From the IMG/VR virus record IMGVR_UViG_3300046450_001696, positions 1-32,441 of that record: DNA of 32,441 nucleotides. One strand, 5' to 3'. Shown in pieces: positions 1,007 through 28,981 of the stretch. The notes below the pieces were generated by a model. That model was not told the DNA's origin. It made no database searches and was given only the letters and a program-made list of their open reading frames with translations. Each line of letters starts with the position of its first letter. Positions within the stretch are counted from its first letter, which is position 1. Made by a program: the position numbers and the translations under genes. The DNA is from a virus.

Positions 1007-1405
1007 TCAATCAGCTTCAAAATCGTCAGCGGCGGTAAAACTTTCGTCTGTACCAGCTTCTTCAATTTCCACTGCATCATCTGAGGCCGAGGTTGTAAAT
1101 GTCCATCGAGAGGAACTTCCTGAATCAAGAAGTACTCTATGACCAGTCATTTTAGTGACTTGGCGAATTGTTCCGCCATCGTCCTTTACTGTGACAGTCA
1201 TTTCACCGGCAACCAAAGCACCTTGTGCTTTGTCAACTAATTTGCAAGTTGCATAAGTTGAGCCATCATAACATTTATATCTACGTGAGCCTTTTTGCTT
1301 CACTATCCAGCCGTTTACTTCTGCGGCTCCGGTATGAAACCGACATTTTAATTCGTTACCAGCATCTGGTGAACCTAAATGTCGTTTATTAATTGGTCTT
1401 CCCAT
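1007..1405 (-). CDS. virion-type small protein, 'MGRPINKR' family, 132 aa
   Basis: The start is placed at 1405 rather than at the longer in-frame ATG (1465), because a strong AGGAG ribosome site sits about 8 nt upstream and the protein then begins MGRPINKRHLG, a beginning I associate with small proteins of marine T4-like phages. The rest is beta-rich: a central IVKQKGSRRYK segment, a VTKMTGHRVLLDSG segment and an acidic tail. Codon use is more GC-rich than the neighbours', as in highly expressed structural genes. A late-promoter match on this strand lies about 85 nt upstream (1490-1497). The function is unknown; a virion or packaged role is inferred from promoter type and expression signals. 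Confidence 0.72.
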   Translation of the reverse strand: MGRPINKRHLGSPDAGNELKCRFHTGAAEVNGWIVKQKGSRRYKCYDGSTYATCKLVDKAQGALVAGEMTVTVKDDGGTIRQVTKMTGHRVLLDSGSSSRWTFTTSASDDAVEIEEAGTDESFTAADDFEAD

Positions 1406-1455
1406 TTGTTTTCTCCTATTACGGGTTCTAACCGTTACGGGGTGGTGCCCCATAA

Positions 1456-1474
1456 AAGGTTGCAAAACAACCTT
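1456..1474. promoter_or_regulatory. inverted repeat overlapping a -35 box (possible operator or hairpin)
   Basis: A perfect 7-bp inverted repeat, AAGGTTG-caaaa-CAACCTT, covers the -35 hexamer (1460-1465) of the + strand promoter. It also lies in the 5' leader of the minus-strand gene starting at 1405. It could be a repressor site for the + promoter or an RNA hairpin for the minus transcript. Confidence 0.45.
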
Positions 1475-7850: not shown

Positions 7851-8283
7851 GATTGAAATAACTGGAAACAAAAAAAGGAACATGCGAGGACCACGTCAAT
7901 TACGCCGAATCCAAAACGATTTCACACAAAAAGATGTTATTGATAAACTAACAGCAGATCCTCTAGACGAAGCTTCAGATGTTAAAGGTTCTGTATGGGA
8001 ACCAAAAAATATAAAATCATATGAAGATGCAATTGATCCCGAAGTACTTGTTCATGGAGTTTCTAGGATGTTATATAGCCAACTACAAGATAACTTAAAA
8101 CGAAAATCCGTTGACATAACAAGAATGATAGAAGAAAAAGAATTTGATCAACTAAATGCACGAATGGAAGTGTTTCAGCATTTTCTCCAGGCAGCCTCAG
8201 ATGTTACTAATCAAATGAACAGCCCTGCCTATAAAGCACGTATAACAAAATTAAAGAATAAAGAAGAATATGGAGTTATGTAA
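7837..8283 (+). CDS. hypothetical protein, 148 aa, late operon
   Basis: Charged, helical and without membrane segments. The N-terminus MKISEIEITGNKKRNMRG loosely resembles the targeting-type N-termini of other proteins here but lacks the E-G/A cleavage pair. The second half (KRKSVDITRMIEEKEFD to NQMNSPAY) looks like a helical bundle. It overlaps the 84-aa gene upstream and shares an ATGTAATG stop-start junction with the nucleotidyltransferase gene, so translation is probably coupled. The function is unknown; an internal-head or assembly role is an inference from context. Confidence 0.65.
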   Translation: MKISEIEITGNKKRNMRGPRQLRRIQNDFTQKDVIDKLTADPLDEASDVKGSVWEPKNIKSYEDAIDPEVLVHGVSRMLYSQLQDNLKRKSVDITRMIEEKEFDQLNARMEVFQHFLQAASDVTNQMNSPAYKARITKLKNKEEYGVM

Positions 8284-9248
8284 TGCTTGTCCGCGAAATT
8301 TTAATTGAAGGCGGGAATGTATTTGGAGATAATACTGGTCGTATTAATCGAGAACACATACAACCTACATTAGATAGATACTTTGCAGAACTACAGCAAG
8401 TATTCCCTCGAGCAGGCATCCAGCCTACTAATTTTCATCCTGTTGGTTCAGTCGGTAAAAAAAGTACTAGCGGTGATATTGATTTAGCAATTGATTCAAC
8501 TGCATTATTTCCTGCAGGTATAACTACTAAATCAATGCAACAATGGAATCTTAAGCCTGACGAATTTGTACTACGATTTGATCAATTTAAAAAACGAGCA
8601 AGATCATCAACAGACGAGCAAGTTGCTATGAAAACCGCATTGGTTTTAATTAGCGAATATGTTAATGAACATGCACCTACTATACACATGGAACCTAAAA
8701 AAGTTCAACCAGGAAATGCGTATGGTATGTTTTCGCAGTACGATGAACAAGGCAATAAGTTAAATGTAGGAGTTCAAATAGACTGGATGGTCGGGCATTT
8801 AGAATGGTTACAATTTAGTTATGCATCTGCTGACTATAGTGAAACGTCAAATGTTAAAGGGTTACACAGAACTCAATTAATATTAGCAATGTTTCAAGCA
8901 ACTGGGTATTCCTTTAATCATGTTAAAGGTGTAACAAATAAAGCAACAGGTGAAATAGAGGCAACCAACCCAGCTGAAGCATTAGCCTTACTTAATAAAC
9001 TGTTTAACATGAACCTAACTCCAGAACAAGTCGCGAATTATCATACACTACATGATGCTATTAGCGGACATCAATTATATGATCAAGTAATGAAAGTTTA
9101 TTTAAAGATACTTGACAGTACAAGAGCAGATATTCCAGATGATTTACAAGAATACTGGATAGCACATCAAAAAGAATTAGGACTCTCAGGAAAATTTATA
9201 CCTAACGAAAGCAACTTAGCACAATATAGGACACAGGTAGCCACATAG
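8283..9248 (+). CDS. nucleotidyltransferase-fold protein (pol-beta superfamily) with capsid-targeting-like N-terminus
   Basis: 321 residues. The nucleotidyltransferase signature is present: GS at 55-56 in FHPVGSVGKKS, then GDIDLAID giving D65 and D67, and a third acidic residue, D167, in VGVQIDWMV. These would bind two metal ions and an NTP. The substrate (RNA, protein or small molecule) is unknown. The first 11 residues (MLVREILIEGG) match the style of T4 internal-protein targeting peptides, with a gp21-type LIE|G cleavage site, so the enzyme may be packaged and injected. The product of 10781-12229 is a paralogue: both share an R-I-x-R ... T-x-DRY lead-in before the GS motif. Confidence 0.75.
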   Translation: MLVREILIEGGNVFGDNTGRINREHIQPTLDRYFAELQQVFPRAGIQPTNFHPVGSVGKKSTSGDIDLAIDSTALFPAGITTKSMQQWNLKPDEFVLRFDQFKKRARSSTDEQVAMKTALVLISEYVNEHAPTIHMEPKKVQPGNAYGMFSQYDEQGNKLNVGVQIDWMVGHLEWLQFSYASADYSETSNVKGLHRTQLILAMFQATGYSFNHVKGVTNKATGEIEATNPAEALALLNKLFNMNLTPEQVANYHTLHDAISGHQLYDQVMKVYLKILDSTRADIPDDLQEYWIAHQKELGLSGKFIPNESNLAQYRTQVAT

Positions 9249-9250
9249 TT

Positions 9251-10201
9251 ATGAGATTGGCACCAAAAAACGAAAATGTTTTTTTATGTGAAATTGAGCT
9301 AACCAATAAATGCAATTATAGATGTTCTTATTGCCCTCCCTTTTCTCACGCAGGTAAAGATGTATTAGATTATAATGATGTTTTATGGTATGTCGATAAA
9401 TTAATAGAAAATGATAATACTAAAACATACAGTATGCGATTATATGGAGGCGAGCCCATATATTACCGTTATATTGATATTTTATTAAAAGAATTATATA
9501 ATAGAGGGGTAACACAACATTTTGTAACAAATGCATCACGACCAATTGAATGGTGGGAAGAGTCACAGCAATTTCTCTCAGGTTGTATAATATCTATGCA
9601 TATGGAGTATGCTGATGTTGATCATATTGTAAATGTTTGTAAAACGTTTGATGCTGATAAACCAGTTTACGTTCAACAAATGATTGATCCAAAAATTTGG
9701 GATACTTGTATAGATAAATCTACGAAATTGTATAATGAATTACTAGATGTTAAGAATGCATTGTTAATACGCAAACCTATTAATCAAAGAAATAAGTACA
9801 GCCCTGCTTATACACCTGAACAAAACGATTTTATATCAAATTGGTATAAACATTTTCCTGATGATAAAGATTGGAACTATGACTGGGAGAAATTAGATAA
9901 TAATATAATATCAGGACCTCTTTATTGGAAAGAAGACGGCAAAGAAGAAGAAGAATATAATCGAATGGGTGCCAAGTTAACAGGCGGAGATAATTTTTTT
10001 GGATGGTTATGTAATGCTGGAACAGATGGAACTATTATAGATGCTCATGGAGAAGTACACAGATCTGCTTGTACAAGCAATATTAGTATTGGTAATATTA
10101 AAAATCGAAAAGTTGAACTACCAACTAAAGGAATCATATGCGATAAATATTCTTGTAGTTGTTTTACAGATTTACAATTTCGAAAGTTTAGGACAATATG
10201 A
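9251..10201 (+). CDS. radical SAM enzyme with SPASM-like auxiliary cluster domain, 316 aa
   Basis: The iron-sulphur/SAM motif is C21-x3-C25-x2-C28 (KCNYRCSYC), followed by LYGGEP (65-69), which contacts the SAM amino group. The C-terminus has a SPASM-like pattern: C254 in WLCNAGTDG, a DAHGEVHRSAC turn (C274), SIGNI, and three more cysteines (C297, C302, C304) that could hold a second cluster. SPASM enzymes commonly modify peptides or proteins; the target here is unknown. It lies between a nucleotidyltransferase and a short protein with two targeting-type repeats, and overlaps the latter by 4 bases (ATGA). The second radical SAM protein (18082-19266) shares several features. Confidence 0.85.
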   Translation: MRLAPKNENVFLCEIELTNKCNYRCSYCPPFSHAGKDVLDYNDVLWYVDKLIENDNTKTYSMRLYGGEPIYYRYIDILLKELYNRGVTQHFVTNASRPIEWWEESQQFLSGCIISMHMEYADVDHIVNVCKTFDADKPVYVQQMIDPKIWDTCIDKSTKLYNELLDVKNALLIRKPINQRNKYSPAYTPEQNDFISNWYKHFPDDKDWNYDWEKLDNNIISGPLYWKEDGKEEEEYNRMGAKLTGGDNFFGWLCNAGTDGTIIDAHGEVHRSACTSNISIGNIKNRKVELPTKGIICDKYSCSCFTDLQFRKFRTI

Positions 10202-10574: not shown

Positions 10575-10784
10575 ATGAATAAGCTATTATTACTTTTCGT
10601 AATGATGGCGACATGGATAGTTGTTGGATGCGGAACAAGTACATTAGGATGTTATGGACATTGGGTTAAAGGACCTCCTGAAAGAGGAACTAGAGCCCTT
10701 AATAAAGATGCCCATCTACCATATTATCAATGTGTAGATGAGAATAACAAAGGTAACAATTTAGAGAAACGGAGTCAATTTTGA
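10575..10784 (+). CDS. small predicted lipoprotein, 69 aa
   Basis: The start is chosen at the ATG at 10575, about 9 nt after a GAGGA ribosome site; an in-frame TTG at 10560 is less likely. MNKLLLLFVMMATWIVVGC is a lipoprotein signal peptide with lipobox V-V-G-C, so the mature protein would be a short lipid-anchored peptide with three more cysteines or so. Phage lipoproteins of this size act as outer spanins or as superinfection-exclusion factors that block receptors; I cannot tell which. Its stop overlaps the TTG start of the next gene. Confidence 0.65.
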   Translation: MNKLLLLFVMMATWIVVGCGTSTLGCYGHWVKGPPERGTRALNKDAHLPYYQCVDENNKGNNLEKRSQF

Positions 10785-12229
10785 GTGGTGTAGCAGGTGG
10801 ACATAGAATAGACAGAGCAAATGTTAAAGCAACAACTGATCGTTATGTAAGTGATGTTCTTAGTGGCTTTGCACCGTTTCGTAGTGCTGAAATAAGTGGT
10901 AGTTATAATACTACAGGTAAGAATGATTTCGGCGATATAGATTTAATTGTTCATTTAGACTCAGATGATAAAAAATTAATTAAAAAAGATTTGCAAAAAT
11001 ACTTAGAAAGCAAACCCCATACTGAAATACTTCCTTTTACTAGCGAAAAATATCCAGGCAAACGTAGTTATAATTCAGGTGAAATTATATCAATACTCTT
11101 TCCTCAAGTAGGACATGATAGGGCAGTACAAATAGACAACATAATAGCATTGGATAAAGATGAAAGTGTTTTCAAGAAGAATTTTTTAGACATGCCAGCT
11201 GAAACCCAAGGGCTTATTATGGGGCTTGTTAAAACTGCTATACAAGAAGCATCAATGAAAAGAATGTTGCCTGACTTGTTTGCACGAATTGGATTAGAAG
11301 TACCAGACACAGATAGAAAATTAGAGTTTACATTAAGTGGTGTTAATTTAAGTTTACGAGCGTATGAAGCAGATGATAATGGTAGAGAAGTAAAAGGTAC
11401 AAGAGAAATACTATGGAACTCCAATAAATGGAAAGATACTGTTAATTTGCTTGGGGATTATAACTTGCGTAAACCGTTTGAAGAGCTATTAGATGATGTT
11501 AAATCAACGTTAAAACACCCTACAAGCAAACAAAGAGTTAAAGGATTATTTAATTCCATGGTATCCATTAAATCAGGCGAAGTAGGTACTGCAAAAGCTG
11601 AACGCAAACAAGACACTATAGATATGGTTAATACTATGGAAAAGTATACATTTTTTCGTGATAATATATTAACTGAAGGCAAAGCATTCCATAATAGAAG
11701 TTGGAGTAAAAATTTATCAATGGCTGATGTTGTTAATTTAACAGCATGTAGTTTGGTGCTATTATATGTATTAGGCGAAGAAGACGATGCTGATGCTAAA
11801 AAATATACAAGAAAATTGTATAGTAGTTACCCTAATTTTACTCAAGTCTCAATTAGTATGTCGGATTTATATACACTTATATCGGCATTTTATGTCAAAT
11901 CGCATATGTTAAATGATGATACATACGATTTGCTTAAACCAAAGGCATTACCGGCATGGTTTATGCGGAAATACTTAACAAAAATTGCATTAGGCGATAT
12001 GTCAAACCAAGATGCAGTTACATTTTTTTATAAAATAAAATCTACCTTTGGCGTACAAAATGGTAATATAAAGCAAGCACTTAGTCTTGCACAAAGGTAT
12101 AATAAACTTGATGGTAACTCAAAACACAAGTTATACCAACTACTTTATGGTTATCTCAATGTACATGGTAGAATAATGGATATATTTTCCACCGTTAGAC
12201 AGAAATATTTCAATTCGTTTGATAAATAA
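10781..12229 (+). CDS. second nucleotidyltransferase-fold protein, 482 aa
   Basis: TTG start, overlapping the lipoprotein stop (TTGA), with GGAG about 7 nt upstream. The motif set is complete: GS at 40-41 (ISGSYNTTG), GDIDLIVHL with D52 and D54, and D119 in AVQIDNII. The lead-in RIDRANVKATTDRY resembles RINREHIQPTLDRY in the 321-aa protein, so the two are paralogues. About 350 C-terminal residues are helical and lack recognised motifs. Unlike its paralogue it has no obvious targeting peptide. It could transfer nucleotides to RNA or protein, or be a degenerate scaffold; the intact acidic triad favours activity. Confidence 0.72.
   Translation: MSGVAGGHRIDRANVKATTDRYVSDVLSGFAPFRSAEISGSYNTTGKNDFGDIDLIVHLDSDDKKLIKKDLQKYLESKPHTEILPFTSEKYPGKRSYNSGEIISILFPQVGHDRAVQIDNIIALDKDESVFKKNFLDMPAETQGLIMGLVKTAIQEASMKRMLPDLFARIGLEVPDTDRKLEFTLSGVNLSLRAYEADDNGREVKGTREILWNSNKWKDTVNLLGDYNLRKPFEELLDDVKSTLKHPTSKQRVKGLFNSMVSIKSGEVGTAKAERKQDTIDMVNTMEKYTFFRDNILTEGKAFHNRSWSKNLSMADVVNLTACSLVLLYVLGEEDDADAKKYTRKLYSSYPNFTQVSISMSDLYTLISAFYVKSHMLNDDTYDLLKPKALPAWFMRKYLTKIALGDMSNQDAVTFFYKIKSTFGVQNGNIKQALSLAQRYNKLDGNSKHKLYQLLYGYLNVHGRIMDIFSTVRQKYFNSFDK
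12221..12228 (+). promoter_or_regulatory. late-promoter-like GATAAATA
   Basis: One mismatch to TATAAATA, overlapping the stop codon of the upstream gene and about 34 nt before the ATG at 12262, which has its own strong AGGAG site. Confidence 0.5.
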
Positions 12230-17425: not shown

Positions 17426-18085
17426 ATGACACAAAAATATAACTATCCAGAGTCGCGACGTGCTATGGTAAACGGCGGAAGAGTATATACTGTCGGTGAT
17501 GAAAAGCTACCTAGCGTAACAACAATATTAGATAAAACAACTGATAAGTCTTTTCTTATTGCATGGCGAAAACGTGTTGGAGATGCCGAAGCAAACCGAG
17601 TGTCAAAAGAATCATCTGGGTTAGGTACAGCAACTCACAAACTTGTTGAAAATTATTTGCTAAAAAAAGAATCAAAACCTAAAGGTAATTTAGTATGGCA
17701 AATGGCTAAAACAATTAGCAAACCAATTATCGACAATCTGAAAGAAAACTTAGATGAAGCATGGGGGGTAGAATGTACACTTTTTTATCCTGATTTATAT
17801 GCTGGCACTACTGATTTGGTTGGGATATACAAAGGTGAACCAGCAATAATAGATTTTAAAACATCAAAGAAAATAAAAAAACGTGAATGGATTGATAATT
17901 ATTTTTTGCAATGTACCGCATATGCATTAGCTCATAATAAAATGTTTGACACAAAGATAAAAAACTGTTATATTTTAATGTGTGATCGTGCAGGTAATTA
18001 TAAAGAATTTTCTATGGACAATAATGAATTTCAATTATATTCTGATAAGTGGACAGAAACGCTTGATAGGTATTATGCATTATGA
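17426..18085 (+). CDS. PD-(D/E)XK exonuclease (RecB/Cas4-like), 219 aa
   Basis: Signature parts occur in order: GLGTATHKLVE (His of the N-terminal RecB-type motif), a Glu in WGVECTLFY, D in LYAGTTDLVG, then AIIDFKTSKK giving D-x-K, and FLQCTAYALA (the Q-x3-Y motif). These bind the metal ions that cut DNA. Such phage nucleases degrade host DNA or process recombination ends. It follows its own early-type promoter and overlaps the second radical SAM gene by 4 bases (ATGA). Confidence 0.85.
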   Translation: MTQKYNYPESRRAMVNGGRVYTVGDEKLPSVTTILDKTTDKSFLIAWRKRVGDAEANRVSKESSGLGTATHKLVENYLLKKESKPKGNLVWQMAKTISKPIIDNLKENLDEAWGVECTLFYPDLYAGTTDLVGIYKGEPAIIDFKTSKKIKKREWIDNYFLQCTAYALAHNKMFDTKIKNCYILMCDRAGNYKEFSMDNNEFQLYSDKWTETLDRYYAL

Positions 18086-19266
18086 CACCTATAGTAGCAA
18101 TAGACAGTGGTTCAGAACACTTTGAAATTACATGGGACTTAGGACGACGATGCAATTTTGATTGTACATATTGCGCCGACCACCGACATAATAATACATC
18201 TCAACATGCAAGTTTAGAAACATTAATAAAAACAAGTAAATTTGTTATTAAGTATAAAAACCTTCTTCAAACTTATATGTATTCTGATAGAGAATACATA
18301 ATTGGATTTACAGGAGGCGAGCCTACAAATAATCCTAATTTTCTTGCAATGTGCGAATATATACATTCGTTAAATGATCCTAGTATAATAATTGATGTCA
18401 CTACTAATGGAGCATTTAGCGAAACATATTGTAATAAACTTATGAAAGCAGTTAATAAAGCCACTATTAGTTATCATTGTGAAGTAGATCAAAGCATAAA
18501 AGATACCGTTATTGATAGAATTTATCAAATGAAGGAATCAAATTATGAGTGTCAAGTTAATTTAATGTTCCATGCTCAAGATGATTACTTTAATGAATGT
18601 GTTAACTTATTAGAACAATTTCAAAAGGATGATATACAATTTGTACCAAGAATAATAGGCGAAAGTTACGATAATGATAGATATAATCATCGATATACCG
18701 AGCAACAACATTCGTGGTTTAGAAATTATTGGAATCCAAAAGAAAAGTGGAGCCCTGCGTCGCCACGTAAAAAAGGACGAAAAGAATTAGGCCGACCATG
18801 TTGCGGCCGACGAGAGTTTTATACACTAGATGAAACAACCGCTAACGAAATGTTAGAAACAGAAATTAAATTTAAAACTAATGATTGGCGTAAATCTGTT
18901 TTTGCTTGTAGCACAGAATTTAAAGAATGGTCGTGTATGATTAATTGGAATTGGCTACACATTGAACAGGAATATGATCGTATATTACATCACCAAACAT
19001 GTAGAGCAAATTTTGGTGGTAAGCGAGGTGAAATTGGAACAATAACAGATTGCGATAAAATTATAGAACGATTAGAAAATCAATTTGCAACAGGAATTAT
19101 GCCTGTAATAGTATGTCCAAATAAACTTTGTGGCTGTGGGTTGTGTGTACAAAAATCAAAGCATCACAAAATAACTACAGCAATGTTTAATACAACGGTG
19201 AAAGGACTAACACCGTCGATAGGTACGGAATTAAAGAGACTAAATACTGAGAGTAAGGATATATAA
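18082..19266 (+). CDS. radical SAM enzyme with extra cysteine clusters, 394 aa
   Basis: C24-x3-C28-x2-C31 (RRCNFDCTYC) binds the radical SAM 4Fe-4S cluster, and GFTGGEP (75-81) is the SAM-contact motif. The C-terminal half holds many further cysteines: a C240-C241 pair (RPCCGRREF), C276, C285, C307, C324, and the tight set C345, C350, C352, C355 (CPNKLCGCGLC), consistent with one or two auxiliary clusters. A Trp-rich MINWNWLHIEQ segment is distinctive. The substrate is unknown. Expressed from an early-type promoter with a nuclease, it differs in timing from the first radical SAM gene. Confidence 0.85.
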   Translation: MTPIVAIDSGSEHFEITWDLGRRCNFDCTYCADHRHNNTSQHASLETLIKTSKFVIKYKNLLQTYMYSDREYIIGFTGGEPTNNPNFLAMCEYIHSLNDPSIIIDVTTNGAFSETYCNKLMKAVNKATISYHCEVDQSIKDTVIDRIYQMKESNYECQVNLMFHAQDDYFNECVNLLEQFQKDDIQFVPRIIGESYDNDRYNHRYTEQQHSWFRNYWNPKEKWSPASPRKKGRKELGRPCCGRREFYTLDETTANEMLETEIKFKTNDWRKSVFACSTEFKEWSCMINWNWLHIEQEYDRILHHQTCRANFGGKRGEIGTITDCDKIIERLENQFATGIMPVIVCPNKLCGCGLCVQKSKHHKITTAMFNTTVKGLTPSIGTELKRLNTESKDI

Positions 19267-24753: not shown

Positions 24754-25077
24754 ATGTATAGACCCCTCCCAAATGGTATTACAATAGGCCAAAGTAAAAT
24801 AGAAGGTTTAGGTTTAATATCTACAAAAGAGTTTGCAAAAGATGTTGTATTAGGAATTGTTCATATCCGTAATAGAAATTTTCCACACGGGTACATAAGA
24901 ACAGCATTAGGAGCATTTTATAATCATAATGACAATCCAAATTGTAAAGTATTAAACGGCTACTGGCATCAAATACCTGTAAAATACTTGATGACAATTA
25001 AAGATATAAAATCTGGTGATGAACTAACAGCGAAATATACATTATATGAGGTCGAAGAGGACGAATGGACAGATTAA
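24754..25077 (+). CDS. minimal SET-domain protein lysine methyltransferase, 107 aa
   Basis: SET motifs occur in order: IGQSKIEGLGLIST (11-24, the G-x-G SAM-binding turn), AFYNHNDNPNCKV (54-66, the NHS-x-x-PN-C motif that builds the pseudoknot) and IKSGDELTAKYTLY (85-98, G-E-L-T-x-x-Y). The length is close to the Chlorella-virus vSET histone methyltransferase (119 residues), so the whole protein is a bare SET core without pre- or post-SET zinc sites. The target is unknown; it could methylate a phage structural or host protein. It follows the tail gene by nine bases. Confidence 0.82.
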   Translation: MYRPLPNGITIGQSKIEGLGLISTKEFAKDVVLGIVHIRNRNFPHGYIRTALGAFYNHNDNPNCKVLNGYWHQIPVKYLMTIKDIKSGDELTAKYTLYEVEEDEWTD

Positions 25078-25154: not shown

Positions 25155-25248
25155 TGGCTCTGGGGGTAGGATTCGAACCTACACGCCCCTCTGCAAAAGG
25201 GACAATACGTAAACAACGCACCACGTCTACCTGTTTCGTCACCCCAGA
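25155..25248 (-). tRNA. unusual tRNA, Asn-type identity (anticodon GUU) with long variable arm
   Basis: The full fold can be drawn: acceptor TCTGGGG/CCCCAGA (7 bp, U1-A72), discriminator G73, encoded CCA, T-arm GTAGG-TTCGAAT-CCTAC, 3-bp D-stem ACG/CGT with a GGTAG loop, anticodon stem GTGCG/CGTAT with loop TTGTTTA. The anticodon is GUU (Asn). G34, U35, U36 and G73 are the known AsnRS identity set in E. coli, and U1-A72 also matches E. coli tRNA-Asn. However, D-arm spacing and the variable arm (GTCCCT/AGGGGC, 7-nt loop) are those of class II tRNA-Leu, and position 37 is U where a purine is expected. Its 5' end overlaps the stop codon of the zinc-finger gene. Confidence 0.78.
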
Positions 25249-25463
25249 GTCTGTTCTTTTATAAGATGTTCCTCTTGATGTTCTGCAAGTTCATCAAGGT
25301 CGGTAAATGTTTCGTCGCATTCAAAGCAACTAGCAAATCCATATTTTTTATAAAAGTTTTTATCATAAGCAAGTTCTCTTGCTTGTCTTTGTAATTCTTT
25401 TATCAAGTCATGTATCCCAGCTCCGTTTTTATAAATCGGAATTGTTTTATTGCTTGTAATCAT
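25239..25463 (-). CDS. small C2H2 zinc-finger protein, 74 aa
   Basis: The C-terminal half contains a clean C2H2 motif, C-x2-C-x12-H-x3-H (CFECDETF ... LAEHQEEH). The N-terminal half is a basic helix (IKELQRQARELAYDKNFYKK). Such small fingers bind nucleic acid or protein; a link to the adjacent tRNA is possible but not shown. The start ATG overlaps the stop of the synthetase-like gene (25463), and its TGA lies inside the tRNA 5' end, so the tRNA is probably cut from the same transcript. Confidence 0.75.
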   Translation of the reverse strand: MITSNKTIPIYKNGAGIHDLIKELQRQARELAYDKNFYKKYGFASCFECDETFTDLDELAEHQEEHLIKEQTLG

Positions 25464-26335
25464 TACATAAGGCCTGCTTTTTTCATTCCTGCAATCAAGC
25501 GTGTTATTCCTATTCCGCCTCCATACCTAGGTATGAAGTCATGTTTTAAAAATTCTTGAAGTTCTGCTTCTACTCTTTCTTTACCAAAGAGATCATACAA
25601 TAACTCGGCATACCCACCGTCTGATATTGTATGGAATTGATGTCGCATTTGGTCAGGATCAGTACCGCGTTCAGCACTACCGATAGTTTCCATTCCGCCT
25701 ATAATGACATCGCATTTATTAGCAAGTTTTCCAGTTTTTTTCACATCATCTTTACCAAGTTTCATGTTCCAAAAAGGACTTGTTGATTCTGGAAAATATG
25801 TTAGGAAAAATACATCTCCATATTCTTTATACATTTCTTCTTCATGTCCTGCATCTAATTCTGCACCAGTATATTTTGCTAAAACACTTTGATACATTCC
25901 GCCAGGAAAATCTTCAGTATAAGGATTTCTTTCATTTTTTGCTTTGAAACCAAGAAATTTACAAAGATCATTTTCCATTTGAAGAAGATCTTCAAAATTG
26001 CCAGGAGCTTCAAATTCGAACATTGGAAAAATAAGTTCGTGTCTACCTGGAGTTGGATTTTGTTCTTGCCTGTAACTTGTACTAACACAATAACAACCTG
26101 GTAAATCAGGTTTTGTTAGTAATTCATATTCAAGCCACATTTGACCTGTTTGAGGTAGTGGCCATATTTCACCGCTATACGTGTAGGTTGCAACCGTAGT
26201 TGGATCCTCACAAGCGGCTAGTATGCTTAATCTGCTTTGGGTATGTACTTCTTGAAAGTTTAAATTATCGAAAAAGGAACGAAGACGCTTAACCACCGTA
26301 GTAAATTCAACAGGGTTAATAAGTTGTGTAGTCAA
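25463..26335 (-). CDS. AsnRS/AspRS catalytic-core paralogue; probable asparagine synthetase (AS-AR type)
   Basis: A 290-residue class II aminoacyl-tRNA synthetase fold without the N-terminal anticodon-binding domain. Motif 2 is STSYRQEQNPTPGRHE (R89, E91). VFFLTYFPESTSPFWNMK (175-192) and CDVIIGGMETIGSAER (208-223) match AsnRS active-site segments. Motif 3 is RYGGGIGITRL (270-280). Archaeal AS-AR, the AspRS-like ammonia-dependent asparagine synthetase, is about the same length (294). Likely reaction: Asp + ATP + NH3 to Asn. An aminoacylating role with the neighbouring Asn-type tRNA is the main alternative. RBS ACGGAGAA and a late-type box (26362-26369) lie upstream. Confidence 0.82.
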   Translation of the reverse strand: MTTQLINPVEFTTVVKRLRSFFDNLNFQEVHTQSRLSILAACEDPTTVATYTYSGEIWPLPQTGQMWLEYELLTKPDLPGCYCVSTSYRQEQNPTPGRHELIFPMFEFEAPGNFEDLLQMENDLCKFLGFKAKNERNPYTEDFPGGMYQSVLAKYTGAELDAGHEEEMYKEYGDVFFLTYFPESTSPFWNMKLGKDDVKKTGKLANKCDVIIGGMETIGSAERGTDPDQMRHQFHTISDGGYAELLYDLFGKERVEAELQEFLKHDFIPRYGGGIGITRLIAGMKKAGLM

Positions 26336-26360: not shown

Positions 26361-26795
26361 CTATTTATGCCGTGGGTCTAATTTCAGCTCTGTTGTAATT
26401 TCTAAACGTAGTCCATTTGGATCAAAAAAGTAAATGCTATAAATCCAGTCATCGTGATTAGTTGGGCCGATAACATCTATATCGTCCGATTTTAAAAGTT
26501 TGCACCATTTATCAACATCGTCCTTCGTATCTACTTCAAATGCAAAATGCACAATCCAATCATCACAATCAGTAGTTGTACCTTTGCCATCGCCAGTATC
26601 AAAAAAAGCAATATTACTACCGTCATCCATTTCAAAAAAGATATGTTTGTACGGAGCATATTCTCCTGTACTTGGTACATAATCTTTTTCTATAGTATGA
26701 ACAAGAGGCAGATTTAAAATTCCACTATAAAAATCAATTGTTTCTTGCACATTGGCACATTTCCAAGCAAAATGATGCAACCCGTTAATGTGCAT
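26361..26795 (-). CDS. VOC-superfamily metalloenzyme (glyoxalase/dioxygenase type), 144 aa
   Basis: The start is placed at 26795 (MHINGLHHFAW), giving a normal single VOC domain and an 11-base overlap with the previous gene; a longer frame to 26852 would run inside that gene. Candidate metal ligands stand at the usual places: H7 or H8, E55 (HIFFEMDDG), H83 (WIVHFAFEV) and E132 (GLRLEITTE). Two beta-alpha-beta-beta-beta repeats are visible. Members act as glyoxalases, epimerases, resistance proteins or dioxygenases. Coupled expression with an oxidase and the synthetase-like protein suggests a shared small-molecule pathway. Confidence 0.85.
   Translation of the reverse strand: MHINGLHHFAWKCANVQETIDFYSGILNLPLVHTIEKDYVPSTGEYAPYKHIFFEMDDGSNIAFFDTGDGKGTTTDCDDWIVHFAFEVDTKDDVDKWCKLLKSDDIDVIGPTNHDDWIYSIYFFDPNGLRLEITTELKLDPRHK
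26362..26369 (-). promoter_or_regulatory. late-promoter-like CATAAATA before the synthetase-like gene
   Basis: On the minus strand, one mismatch to TATAAATA, 26 nt upstream of the ATG at 26335 and overlapping the end of the VOC gene. It may allow separate late expression of the synthetase-like gene, zinc finger and tRNA. Confidence 0.4.
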
Positions 26796-27546
26796 AGTGT
26801 TCTCGGCTGATACGTTCTTGGTCAAGCCCAACCCAAAACGCTTCGACTCCATTTAACATTTCATTACCTGCTTTAATAAACAAATCCTCATTAAGGTTAT
26901 GTTCATTGTACAATGTGATCATTTCTTCTCTTGTGTGTTCGGCATGTTGTTCTTCTAACTTGTCATGCCATGTAAAAAATCCTAAAGGCAAATTTAAAGA
27001 ATATTTTGTTTTAAATTTTTGTAATCCTGCTATCAAATCTTTCCAAAAGCCGGCCGCCGCCCAATTTTCTACTGCAAAACTTGCACCTGCAGATACATTA
27101 AAATCTTCATTACCATATATTCTAATTAATTCATCACAATAAAATAATGTTGCTGGCGATCCGTGTTTTCGTTTACCTATATCATCAAATGTTAATCCTA
27201 ATGGTTTAGCAAAACTAACTAGCCATTCGAAATGTGCAGATGCAAATCTATATGTTCCTTCATCTACAGAACCATCTTTAAAAGCAACCCCTATTTCATT
27301 TGCTAATACTTCTTTTCCTGCTCTTGCTTCCTCTAAATCTATTGCATTTATAACTTTGTTTAATTGAGCAATAATAAATTGATTTGAAAAAACAGAAAAT
27401 TGTTGGGTAAATTGACGTACATCTTCTAATATTAAATTTGGTGTATGCCTAAACCAACTACAATATTTGTTGTCTATTATAACTGAATGATTAAGTAATT
27501 CATTATCTATTCGTTCTAAAAAATTATCAAGAGGCATACTTGTCAT
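26785..27546 (-). CDS. haem-oxygenase-like di-iron oxidase (HDO) family protein, 253 aa
   Basis: Wholly helical, as for the haem-oxygenase-like fold. Candidate di-iron ligands: E84 (LANEIGVAF), H105/E107 (SAHFEWL), E160 (FAVENWAAAGFW) and H194-x3-E198-x2-H201 (TWHDKLEEQHAEH), the H-x3-D/E-x2-H motif of this family. Known members (UndA, BesC, SznF, CADD) perform oxidative cleavage or hydroxylation of amino acids and fatty acids. It overlaps the upstream membrane-protein gene by 20 bases and the VOC gene by 11, so all three are co-translated. The substrate is unknown; an amino acid or amide is suggested only by the neighbours. Confidence 0.75.
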   Translation of the reverse strand: MTSMPLDNFLERIDNELLNHSVIIDNKYCSWFRHTPNLILEDVRQFTQQFSVFSNQFIIAQLNKVINAIDLEEARAGKEVLANEIGVAFKDGSVDEGTYRFASAHFEWLVSFAKPLGLTFDDIGKRKHGSPATLFYCDELIRIYGNEDFNVSAGASFAVENWAAAGFWKDLIAGLQKFKTKYSLNLPLGFFTWHDKLEEQHAEHTREEMITLYNEHNLNEDLFIKAGNEMLNGVEAFWVGLDQERISREHYAH

Positions 27547-28021: not shown

Positions 28022-28981
28022 ATGAAGACAGTACTAGAATACGTATGGCTCGATGCGAACGAGCATTTACGTAGTAAAACAAAAGTCGCCGATGGCGATA
28101 TTAATAAGTTAGAACTAGTTCCAATTTGGGGTTATGATGGTTCATCAACTGATCAAGCTCCTGGCAACCATTCTGATGTTACATTAACCCCGGTTAAACT
28201 TTATCATAACCCATTCCAGCCATCAGGTTGGCTTGTTATGTGTTCAACTGAAAAGAGAGAAGCCATAACATTTGAAGACTCTGATGATTATTGGTTTGGA
28301 TTTGAACAAGAATACTTTATAACAAATGGTACTGGTAAACCACTAGGCTGGGCAAACGGAGAGCCCGGACCTCAAGGACCATATTACTGTGGTGTAGGTG
28401 CAAGTAAAGTTGCAGGAAGAAAAGTAGTTTCAGATCATATGGATGCATGTATTGATGCAGAGATTGATATCACTGGTACAAACGCTGAAGTTGCTCTTGG
28501 CCAATGGGAATATCAAGTGTTTAGTAAAGGTGCAAAGAATGCCGGTGATGATCTTTGGATGTCACGATATATTTTAGAGAGAGTTGCAGAAGAGCATGGC
28601 TGTGATATTAATATAGAACCTAAACCTATTAAAGGTGATTGGAATGGATCTGGGATGCATACAAACTTTAGCACAAACGAGATGAGAAACGATTCTCAGT
28701 TAGGTGTCTATCATGATATATTAGATAAAATGAAAGCCCGACATGCTGAACACATAGCAGTATATGGAAAAGATAATGATCAAAGATTGACTGGTGAACA
28801 CGAGACAGCATCTATTGATCAGTTTACTTATGGTGAAGGTGATAGAGGTGCAAGTGTGAGAATACCTCTTGAGACAGTTGAGTCTAATTATACAACTGGT
28901 TACTTAGAAGATAGACGACCAGCATCTAATGCCAATCCATATGATATCACAAAAGTTATTATAGATACTATTCAAGCATAA
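28022..28981 (+). CDS. glutamine synthetase, eukaryotic (GSII) type, 319 aa
   Basis: Nearly every GSII block is present: WGYDGSSTDQAPG (N-terminal beta-grasp), WFGFEQEYFI (metal-binding Glu), GPYYCGVGA, IDITGTNAEVALGQWEYQV, GDWNGSGMHTNFST (His/Asn ATP and glutamate site), RLTGEHETASIDQF, RGASVRIP (catalytic Arg) and GYLEDRRPASNANPYD. It joins Glu and ammonia using ATP to make Gln. About 30-40 residues shorter than usual GSII (350-370), lost at the termini, with all active-site blocks kept. AAGGA lies before the ATG. It is divergent from the cassette with the asparagine-synthetase-like gene and followed by its own terminator. GSII in a phage is highly unusual. Confidence 0.95.
   Translation: MKTVLEYVWLDANEHLRSKTKVADGDINKLELVPIWGYDGSSTDQAPGNHSDVTLTPVKLYHNPFQPSGWLVMCSTEKREAITFEDSDDYWFGFEQEYFITNGTGKPLGWANGEPGPQGPYYCGVGASKVAGRKVVSDHMDACIDAEIDITGTNAEVALGQWEYQVFSKGAKNAGDDLWMSRYILERVAEEHGCDINIEPKPIKGDWNGSGMHTNFSTNEMRNDSQLGVYHDILDKMKARHAEHIAVYGKDNDQRLTGEHETASIDQFTYGEGDRGASVRIPLETVESNYTTGYLEDRRPASNANPYDITKVIIDTIQA

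Follow-up and report, generated by a model that had tools for sequence, protein, structure and literature searches.

What does a viral tRNA do when it combines the identity elements of tRNA-Asn with the body of a tRNA-Leu and lies next to a gene resembling asparaginyl-tRNA synthetase (AsnRS)? The question arose from a 32,441-nt stretch of viral DNA (IMG/VR record IMGVR_UViG_3300046450_001696), referred to as the window below. The locus comprises one run of genes:

25155–25248, minus strand: tRNA with a class II, Leu-type body and Asn identity elements (ARAGORN, RF00005, comparison of 102 sequences, covariation)
25239–25463, minus strand: 74-aa ORF with a CxxC...HxxxH (C2H2-like) motif, between the AsnRS-like gene and the tRNA
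25463–26335, minus strand: paralogue of the AsnRS catalytic domain, 290 aa, putative pyrimidine enzyme (PF00152, phrog_29758, AlphaFold)
26361–26852, minus strand: VOC/glyoxalase-family ORF, upstream in the same gene run (PF00903, 8e-15)
26785–27546, minus strand: CADD-like (heme-oxygenase-like) ORF, upstream in the same gene run (TIGR04305, weak)

Structure and Identity of the tRNA

Direct reading bore out the elements named in the first-pass annotation of the window. The tRNA is 94 nt long with an encoded CCA and carries the anticodon GUU, U1–A72, G73, and U37 on a body with a Leu-type D-arm and a 6-bp variable arm. The 7-bp acceptor stem (UCUGGGG/CCCCAGA) includes U1–A72, the D-arm reads ACG-AAACAGGUAGA-CGU, the anticodon stem GUGCG/CGUAU closes the loop UUGUUUA (U33, GUU, U37), the 22-nt variable region forms its 6-bp stem around the loop UUUGCAG, and the T-arm is GUAGG-UUCGAAU-CCUAC. 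ARAGORN called positions 25155–25248 on the minus strand as tRNA-Asn (GUU), and the covariance-model check proposed by the annotation, run with the Rfam tRNA model RF00005, gave 40.5 bits (E 4.8e-9).

In comparison with a canonical elongator tRNA-Asn, GUU, G73, and U1–A72 are all present, whereas U37 stands in place of A37 and the 22-nt region with its 6-bp stem in place of the short class I variable loop. In comparison with the class II tRNA-Leu, the D-arm and the long variable arm agree, but A73 and a Leu anticodon are both missing. The acceptor of 7 bp and T stem of 5 bp do not match the allo-tRNA or Sec-type arrangements (8/4, 9/3, or 8/5 bp). Within the anticodon loop U33 is retained, and the sole oddity is U37.

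The single-sequence minimum-energy fold of the tRNA alone did not reproduce the canonical D and anticodon arms. Among 18 representatives of the family described below, pairing holds in 100% of the helix cells, and of 20 pairs, 15 have changed on both sides. As this covariation is complete in all four stems, the RNA appears to be under selection as a tRNA, and a chance tRNA-like fold is ruled out. The variable-arm loop UUUGCAG, previously likened to an Ala anticodon loop, is present as described; it is not conserved in the relatives, and we rejected it as a feature of the family.

A Conserved tRNA and AsnRS-Like Gene in Phages

Searches with the AsnRS-like protein found hundreds of relatives in marine phages. 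Of 148 phage loci that could be assessed, about 144 have a chimeric-type tRNA just 3′ of this gene (custom scan and ARAGORN). The custom scan looked for a 7-bp acceptor, a T-arm, and an anticodon stem, with a scoring bonus for GUU and G73 and no score for U1–A72; among the assessable loci of two viral searches, it was positive at 66 of 74 and at all 74, and the tRNA nearly always followed the gene on its strand at a distance of 10–230 nt. Of the eight loci missed, four (L008, L015, L029, and L030) have short-armed tRNAs called by ARAGORN. ARAGORN alone, which is independent of the custom scoring, placed a tRNA within 300 nt in 118 of 139 loci (108 of them GUU), and all 73 distinct GUU calls have U1; many of the loci without a call have long variable arms. 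The chimeric tRNA was missing from four phage loci and from huge phages in the scan of loci. In phage records lacking an adjacent copy, the tRNA-model matches read elsewhere in the record were ordinary tRNAs; among them is a plain tRNA-Asn in the L071 record.

The cultured Prochlorococcus phages P-SSM2, P-SSM5, and P-SSM7 carry the AsnRS-like gene, annotated as "tRNA ligase." In P-SSM5 and P-SSM7 a "tRNA-Asn" is annotated directly after it, and in P-SSM2 the custom scan found the tRNA 18 nt downstream. The P-SSM2 record (AY939844.2) puts its tRNA-Asn PSSM2_199 some 2 kb away from the actual tRNA sequence; both the locus-tag number and the sequence point to the position directly after the AsnRS-like gene. 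An AsnRS-like gene identical to that of the window, also followed by the tRNA, is found on an 89.5-kb contig of a Methylophilaceae metagenome-assembled genome, which hints at Methylophilaceae as host of the window virus. The AsnRS-like neighbor noted by the first-pass annotation has thus held up and, the pair being conserved, proved decisive. On these sequence comparisons we consider it well supported that the tRNA and the AsnRS-like gene form a conserved pair. The pair appears to be previously undescribed: searches of open-access full texts found no description of phage AsnRS/tRNA-Asn or of AsnRS-like genes in pyrimidine synthesis.

The other genes of the run are less constant. The end of the 74-aa ORF overlaps the 5′ end of the tRNA by 10 nt, and a similar ORF occurs in 26 related loci (tblastn); it is absent where the gap between the AsnRS-like gene and the tRNA is 10–40 nt. 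The VOC and CADD-like ORFs are found near the AsnRS-like gene only in the relatives L009 and L014, and we rejected a conserved operon including them, as it is common to only these two close relatives. The CADD-like ORF scores 20.8 bits with TIGR04305, far under the cut-off of 200. CADD is linked to folate metabolism, and given this link, the ORF is possibly another nucleotide-synthesis gene.

Elsewhere in the window, a GlnII-type glutamine synthetase-like ORF (28022–28981, plus strand; NCBIfam 325 bits, cut-off 500) lies near the AsnRS-like operon and is also found in L009, L012, and L014, and a small SET-domain protein (24754–25077, plus strand) is convergent with the tRNA gene. An Rfam freshwater-2 RNA (1403–1473, minus strand; 60.2 bits, cut-off 49.9) has its end precisely within the ATG of an ORF with the putative coding part 1007–1405 (minus strand) and is probably its structured 5′ leader. 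Two radical SAM proteins (9251–10201 and 18082–19266, plus strand) score under all specific family cut-offs, and two ORFs (8283–9248 and 10781–12229, plus strand) have a GS...GDIDL motif and look nucleotidyltransferase-like by eye.

Conserved and Relaxed Positions of the tRNA Family

Among 102 distinct family tRNAs, U1–A72 and G73 are kept in every one and GUU in 101, in agreement with the GUU calls of ARAGORN. The single exception (L072, 3868–3966) has the Asp anticodon GUC and still adjoins an AsnRS-like gene. The anticodon loop is relaxed elsewhere: nucleotide 37 is U in 90, G in 6, and A in 6 tRNAs (purine in 12 of 102), and nucleotide 33 is U in 92, C in 8, and G in 2, with at least nine changes on a quick protein tree of weak support. 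The ordinary tRNAs of the same loci, misread chimeras set aside, all have U33 and a purine at 37; the difference is pronounced for purine 37 (p=1e-23) and only p=0.06 for U33. The modification t6A needs A37, and since most family members lack it, they cannot carry t6A; U37, which the first-pass annotation expected to block t6A in the window tRNA, is the rule in the family. CCA is encoded except in the cyanophage copies, which suggests that the mature 3′ end matters.

The kept positions have known roles. Bacterial Asn identity consists of the anticodon and G73 and can be transplanted to tRNA-Lys; U1–A72 is a determinant for the amidation of Asp-tRNA-Asn, with G1–C72 and U20a as antideterminants; and G73 of tRNA-Ser is an antideterminant against LeuRS (PMC9976931, PMC4206432). 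As the conserved bases match these published determinants, they are the ones required for Asn loading along both routes, and G73 is expected to keep LeuRS off the family tRNAs. Bacterial tRNA-Asn, charged by AspRS/GatCAB or by AsnRS, shares GUU, G73, and U1–A72 with the phage tRNA; unlike it, the phage tRNA has a Leu-type class II body, a variable region of 5–39 nt (5–7 nt in a minority), U37, and sometimes no U33. This well-supported conservation pattern suggests, from sequence, a family tRNA that would be charged and yet is probably a poor decoder or a non-decoder.

The same pattern bears on the possibility that the RNA is a working translational tRNA-Asn whose anticodon loop has been altered to escape host anticodon nucleases. 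Loop changes in phage tRNAs are a published route of escape (PMC10264068), and the retention of GUU (101/102) and U33 (92/102) would suit a decoding tRNA. Like the tRNAs described there, the tRNA here is phage-encoded with an altered anticodon loop; it differs in being tied to one enzyme gene and altered at position 37 almost family-wide. A translational role would also leave the U37 of 90 tRNAs at odds with the A required for t6A, the repeated turn of U33 to C or G (at least nine changes on the tree) and the constant pairing with an AsnRS-like pyrimidine gene without reason, and changes of this kind are not seen in the remaining tRNAs of these phages. We consider it improbable.

The AsnRS-Like Protein

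The AsnRS-like ORF of the window matches PF00152 (8.8e-19) and phrog_29758, a family of unknown function. Its AlphaFold model, computed from an input alignment with three database-sequence rows left out, has pLDDT 89.9 and pTM 0.90 and consists of an AsnRS-type catalytic domain only. The best structural match is an AsnRS with Asn-AMP (8h53; Z 26.3, rmsd 2.4 over 249 residues), followed lower down by the archaeal asparagine synthetase A (3p8t; Z 23.2). In the alignment the class II core is present, with the motif 2 and 3 arginines invariant (R89, E91, and R279 are invariant) and Thr in place of Glu in motif 3. The N-terminal OB-fold anticodon-binding domain is absent, as in every alignment row the ORF starts with the catalytic core. 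Of the earlier AsnRS-like label, the adjacency and the fold stand; the anticodon-binding domain is missing and the gene context, as shown below, is that of pyrimidine synthesis.

Because the protein has no anticodon-binding domain, the invariance of GUU appears better explained by reading by a host enzyme. This weighs on a second possibility, that the phage protein and the chimeric tRNA form a private synthetase–tRNA pair in which the protein does the charging, whether for translation or for some other process that uses Asn-tRNA. The adjacency of the genes, the AsnRS fold with best matches to Asn-AMP-bound structures, and the conserved class II motif regions would all fit; however, GUU is the most conserved element and the domain to read it is lacking, the protein is acidic, and relatives of 50–60% identity work without the tRNA, in pyr operons. 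We regard such a pair as quite unlikely. The phage enzymes are in fact strongly acidic (net −7 per 100 aa), the opposite of the more basic character considered as a sign of tRNA binding.

Cellular Relatives and the First Steps of Pyrimidine Synthesis

A genome scan found proteins of 50–60% identity in candidate-phyla bacteria, Bacteroidota, Rickettsiales, and archaeal bins and in the complete genome of Pasteurella atlantica. These cellular loci have no adjacent chimeric tRNA. A partner elsewhere in the cellular genomes was rejected, as the matches read (the weaker ones only in part) are ordinary tRNA-Leu or tRNA-Tyr, and the tRNA model built from the family hits ordinary tRNA-Leu best. The cellular neighbors are instead pyrE, pyrF, pyrD, and PRPP synthetase in pyr operons: at least 28 of 80 genome-collection loci have a pyr neighbor within 3 kb, a few of the 28 being phage-like contigs. 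In a Patescibacteria locus (L192, 643–3846), pyrE, an amidohydrolase-like gene, an argininosuccinate-lyase-like gene, and the AsnRS-like gene stand in a row, and an ArgH-like gene adjoins the AsnRS-like gene also in L237 and L247.

The genomes with an AsnRS-like gene mostly lack the first steps of the pathway. Counted on assemblies that may be incomplete, PyrB is missing in 36 of 37 cellular genomes (over the cut-off in one, with three further matches in the range of ornithine carbamoyltransferase), CarB in 35 of 37 (over the cut-off in only two), and PyrC is over the cut-off in none of the 37; judged by motif, the six best PyrC-like matches read are of NEPGR (allantoinase) or hydantoinase type. 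PyrB and CarB were found in all 14 control genomes. As PyrE is found in 35 of 37 genomes and PyrF in 24 of 35, these genomes retain the later part of the pathway. Among 149 genomes of the order of Aureispira, 7 have the AsnRS-like gene and 123 have PyrB with no overlap (Fisher p=2.3e-6, kinship ignored). In Pasteurellaceae, where three genomes carry the AsnRS-like gene, mutual exclusion is uninformative as PyrB is absent family-wide; the pattern is consistent with the acquisition of a replacement. The loss of PyrB could also reflect lifestyle, many of the cellular hosts being parasites, symbionts, or predators. Replacement of the first steps in the cellular relatives is well supported by sequence, and the AsnRS-like family likely supplies dihydroorotate in place of CarAB–PyrB–PyrC.

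The structural similarity to 3p8t raises the further possibility that the protein is a plain asparagine synthetase, like the archaeal AsnA and unrelated to dihydroorotate. The two share the truncated architecture, an AsnRS-type catalytic domain without the anticodon-binding domain, but belong to different sequence families: asparagine synthetase A models score 19 bits on the cellular relative L171, against cut-offs of 322–389, and no such model is among the family-model matches of the window protein. We know of neither a pyr operon association nor a tRNA partner for the archaeal enzyme, and a synthetase would leave the mutual exclusion with PyrB and the pyr operons unexplained. This we find highly unlikely.

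Phage loci show the same linkage in places. Pyrimidine genes lie near the AsnRS-like gene in 12 of 80 phage loci with 5-kb flanks; where the flanks are mostly shorter, they do so in 4 of 87. Pfam confirms OMP decarboxylase and dihydroorotate dehydrogenase in L013, L027, L067, and L185. The small phage PyrE is assigned less firmly: it stays under the Pfam cut-off or has no match and is backed by similarity to L202. The order on one strand of L067 is pyrD, AsnRS-like, tRNA, and pyrE-like, so that the tRNA there sits within a pyrimidine cassette. The window itself contains no pyr gene: linkage to pyrD, pyrE, or pyrF and replacement of missing upstream steps were found for cellular and some phage relatives and not for the window. 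From these gene contexts, the pair is fairly probably linked to pyrimidine synthesis.

A Possible Role for the Pair

We tentatively propose, at somewhat short of an even chance, that a dedicated, non-decoding Asn-tRNA serves pyrimidine synthesis in the phage together with the AsnRS-like enzyme encoded beside it. We infer its charging, the use of Asn as substrate, the chemistry, and the place of the tRNA in it as follows. The tRNA would be transcribed together with the AsnRS-like gene and matured, CCA being encoded or, in cyanophages, added. The host would load it with Asn by AsnRS or by AspRS plus GatCAB, as the tRNA keeps the bases that those enzymes read. Its Asn would be reserved from translation, as a tRNA without A37/t6A, and in some lineages without U33, is expected to be a poor ribosomal decoder; since most copies, that of the window included, keep U33, weak decoding may occur. 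The AsnRS-like protein, an AsnRS catalytic domain turned biosynthetic enzyme, would convert Asn, bicarbonate, and ATP to dihydroorotate, using Asn either free after release or still attached to the tRNA. PyrD, PyrE, and PyrF of phage or host would then complete UMP.

Dihydroorotate equals Asn plus CO2 minus water, and all its ring atoms but C2 can come from Asn. TsaC forms a carbamoyl-adenylate with threonine and could serve as a model: N-carboxylated Asn may be activated as a carbamoyl-adenylate, with the side-chain amide closing the ring. The proposed product is the same as that of the CarAB–PyrB–PyrC route and would feed the same PyrD–PyrE–PyrF steps, but three unrelated enzymes would be matched by a single AsnRS-like protein. 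The tRNA might provide Asn where the host possibly forms this amino acid on tRNA alone, or it might be the actual carrier. That the dedicated tRNA specifically supplies the Asn is somewhat less likely than not. That Asn on the tRNA is the direct substrate, carboxylated and cyclized to dihydroorotate in one step by the AsnRS-derived enzyme, is rather doubtful, and equally doubtful is the resulting tRNA-dependent bypass of carbamoyl phosphate, aspartate carbamoyltransferase, and dihydroorotase. As the cellular homologues lack the chimeric tRNA, it is no general requirement of the enzyme; this and the acidity of the phage enzymes, the opposite of what tRNA binding favors, argue against the direct-carrier role. 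The acidity also counts against the proposal as a whole, as does the low share of phage loci flanked by pyr genes, with none in the window.

Some of this evidence would suit a decoy or sponge that captures host AsnRS, an anticodon nuclease, or some other factor that binds tRNA and has only an indirect link to the AsnRS-like gene; in one variant, the tRNA eases the drain of Asn caused by the enzyme. Recognition elements are kept and decoding elements lost, and the cellular enzymes have no such tRNA. A decoy would, however, have no need to stay beside one gene across cyanophages and other marine phages, and no defense gene is seen consistently nearby; we consider a decoy, in either form, unlikely. 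Of the three roles suggested by the first-pass annotation, a dedicated non-translational tRNA fits best, given U37 in 90 and the loss of U33 in 10 of 102 tRNAs; a decoy and an adapted phage tRNA are not favored, as they leave the pairing with the AsnRS-like gene unexplained.

Known Systems and Significance

Non-translational carrier tRNAs are found in tetrapyrrole synthesis (tRNA-Glu) and in the staphylococcal cell wall (tRNA-Gly). Like these, the phage tRNA is linked to metabolism and has loop changes that disfavor the ribosome. To our knowledge, no carrier tRNA described so far has a link to pyrimidine synthesis or an AsnRS paralogue as its partner, and we can name no system in which a dedicated tRNA, an AsnRS paralogue, and pyrimidine synthesis come together.

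If the proposal holds for the enzyme, there would be a second pyrimidine route that starts with asparagine. It would operate in candidate-phyla bacteria, some Bacteroidota, intracellular Rickettsiales, and a fish-associated Pasteurella, and abundant marine phages would carry it; genomes currently counted as missing the first pyrimidine steps may then be prototrophs. If it holds for the tRNA, a tRNA would serve nucleotide synthesis, and the long-annotated "tRNA-Asn" of model cyanophages would have a function.
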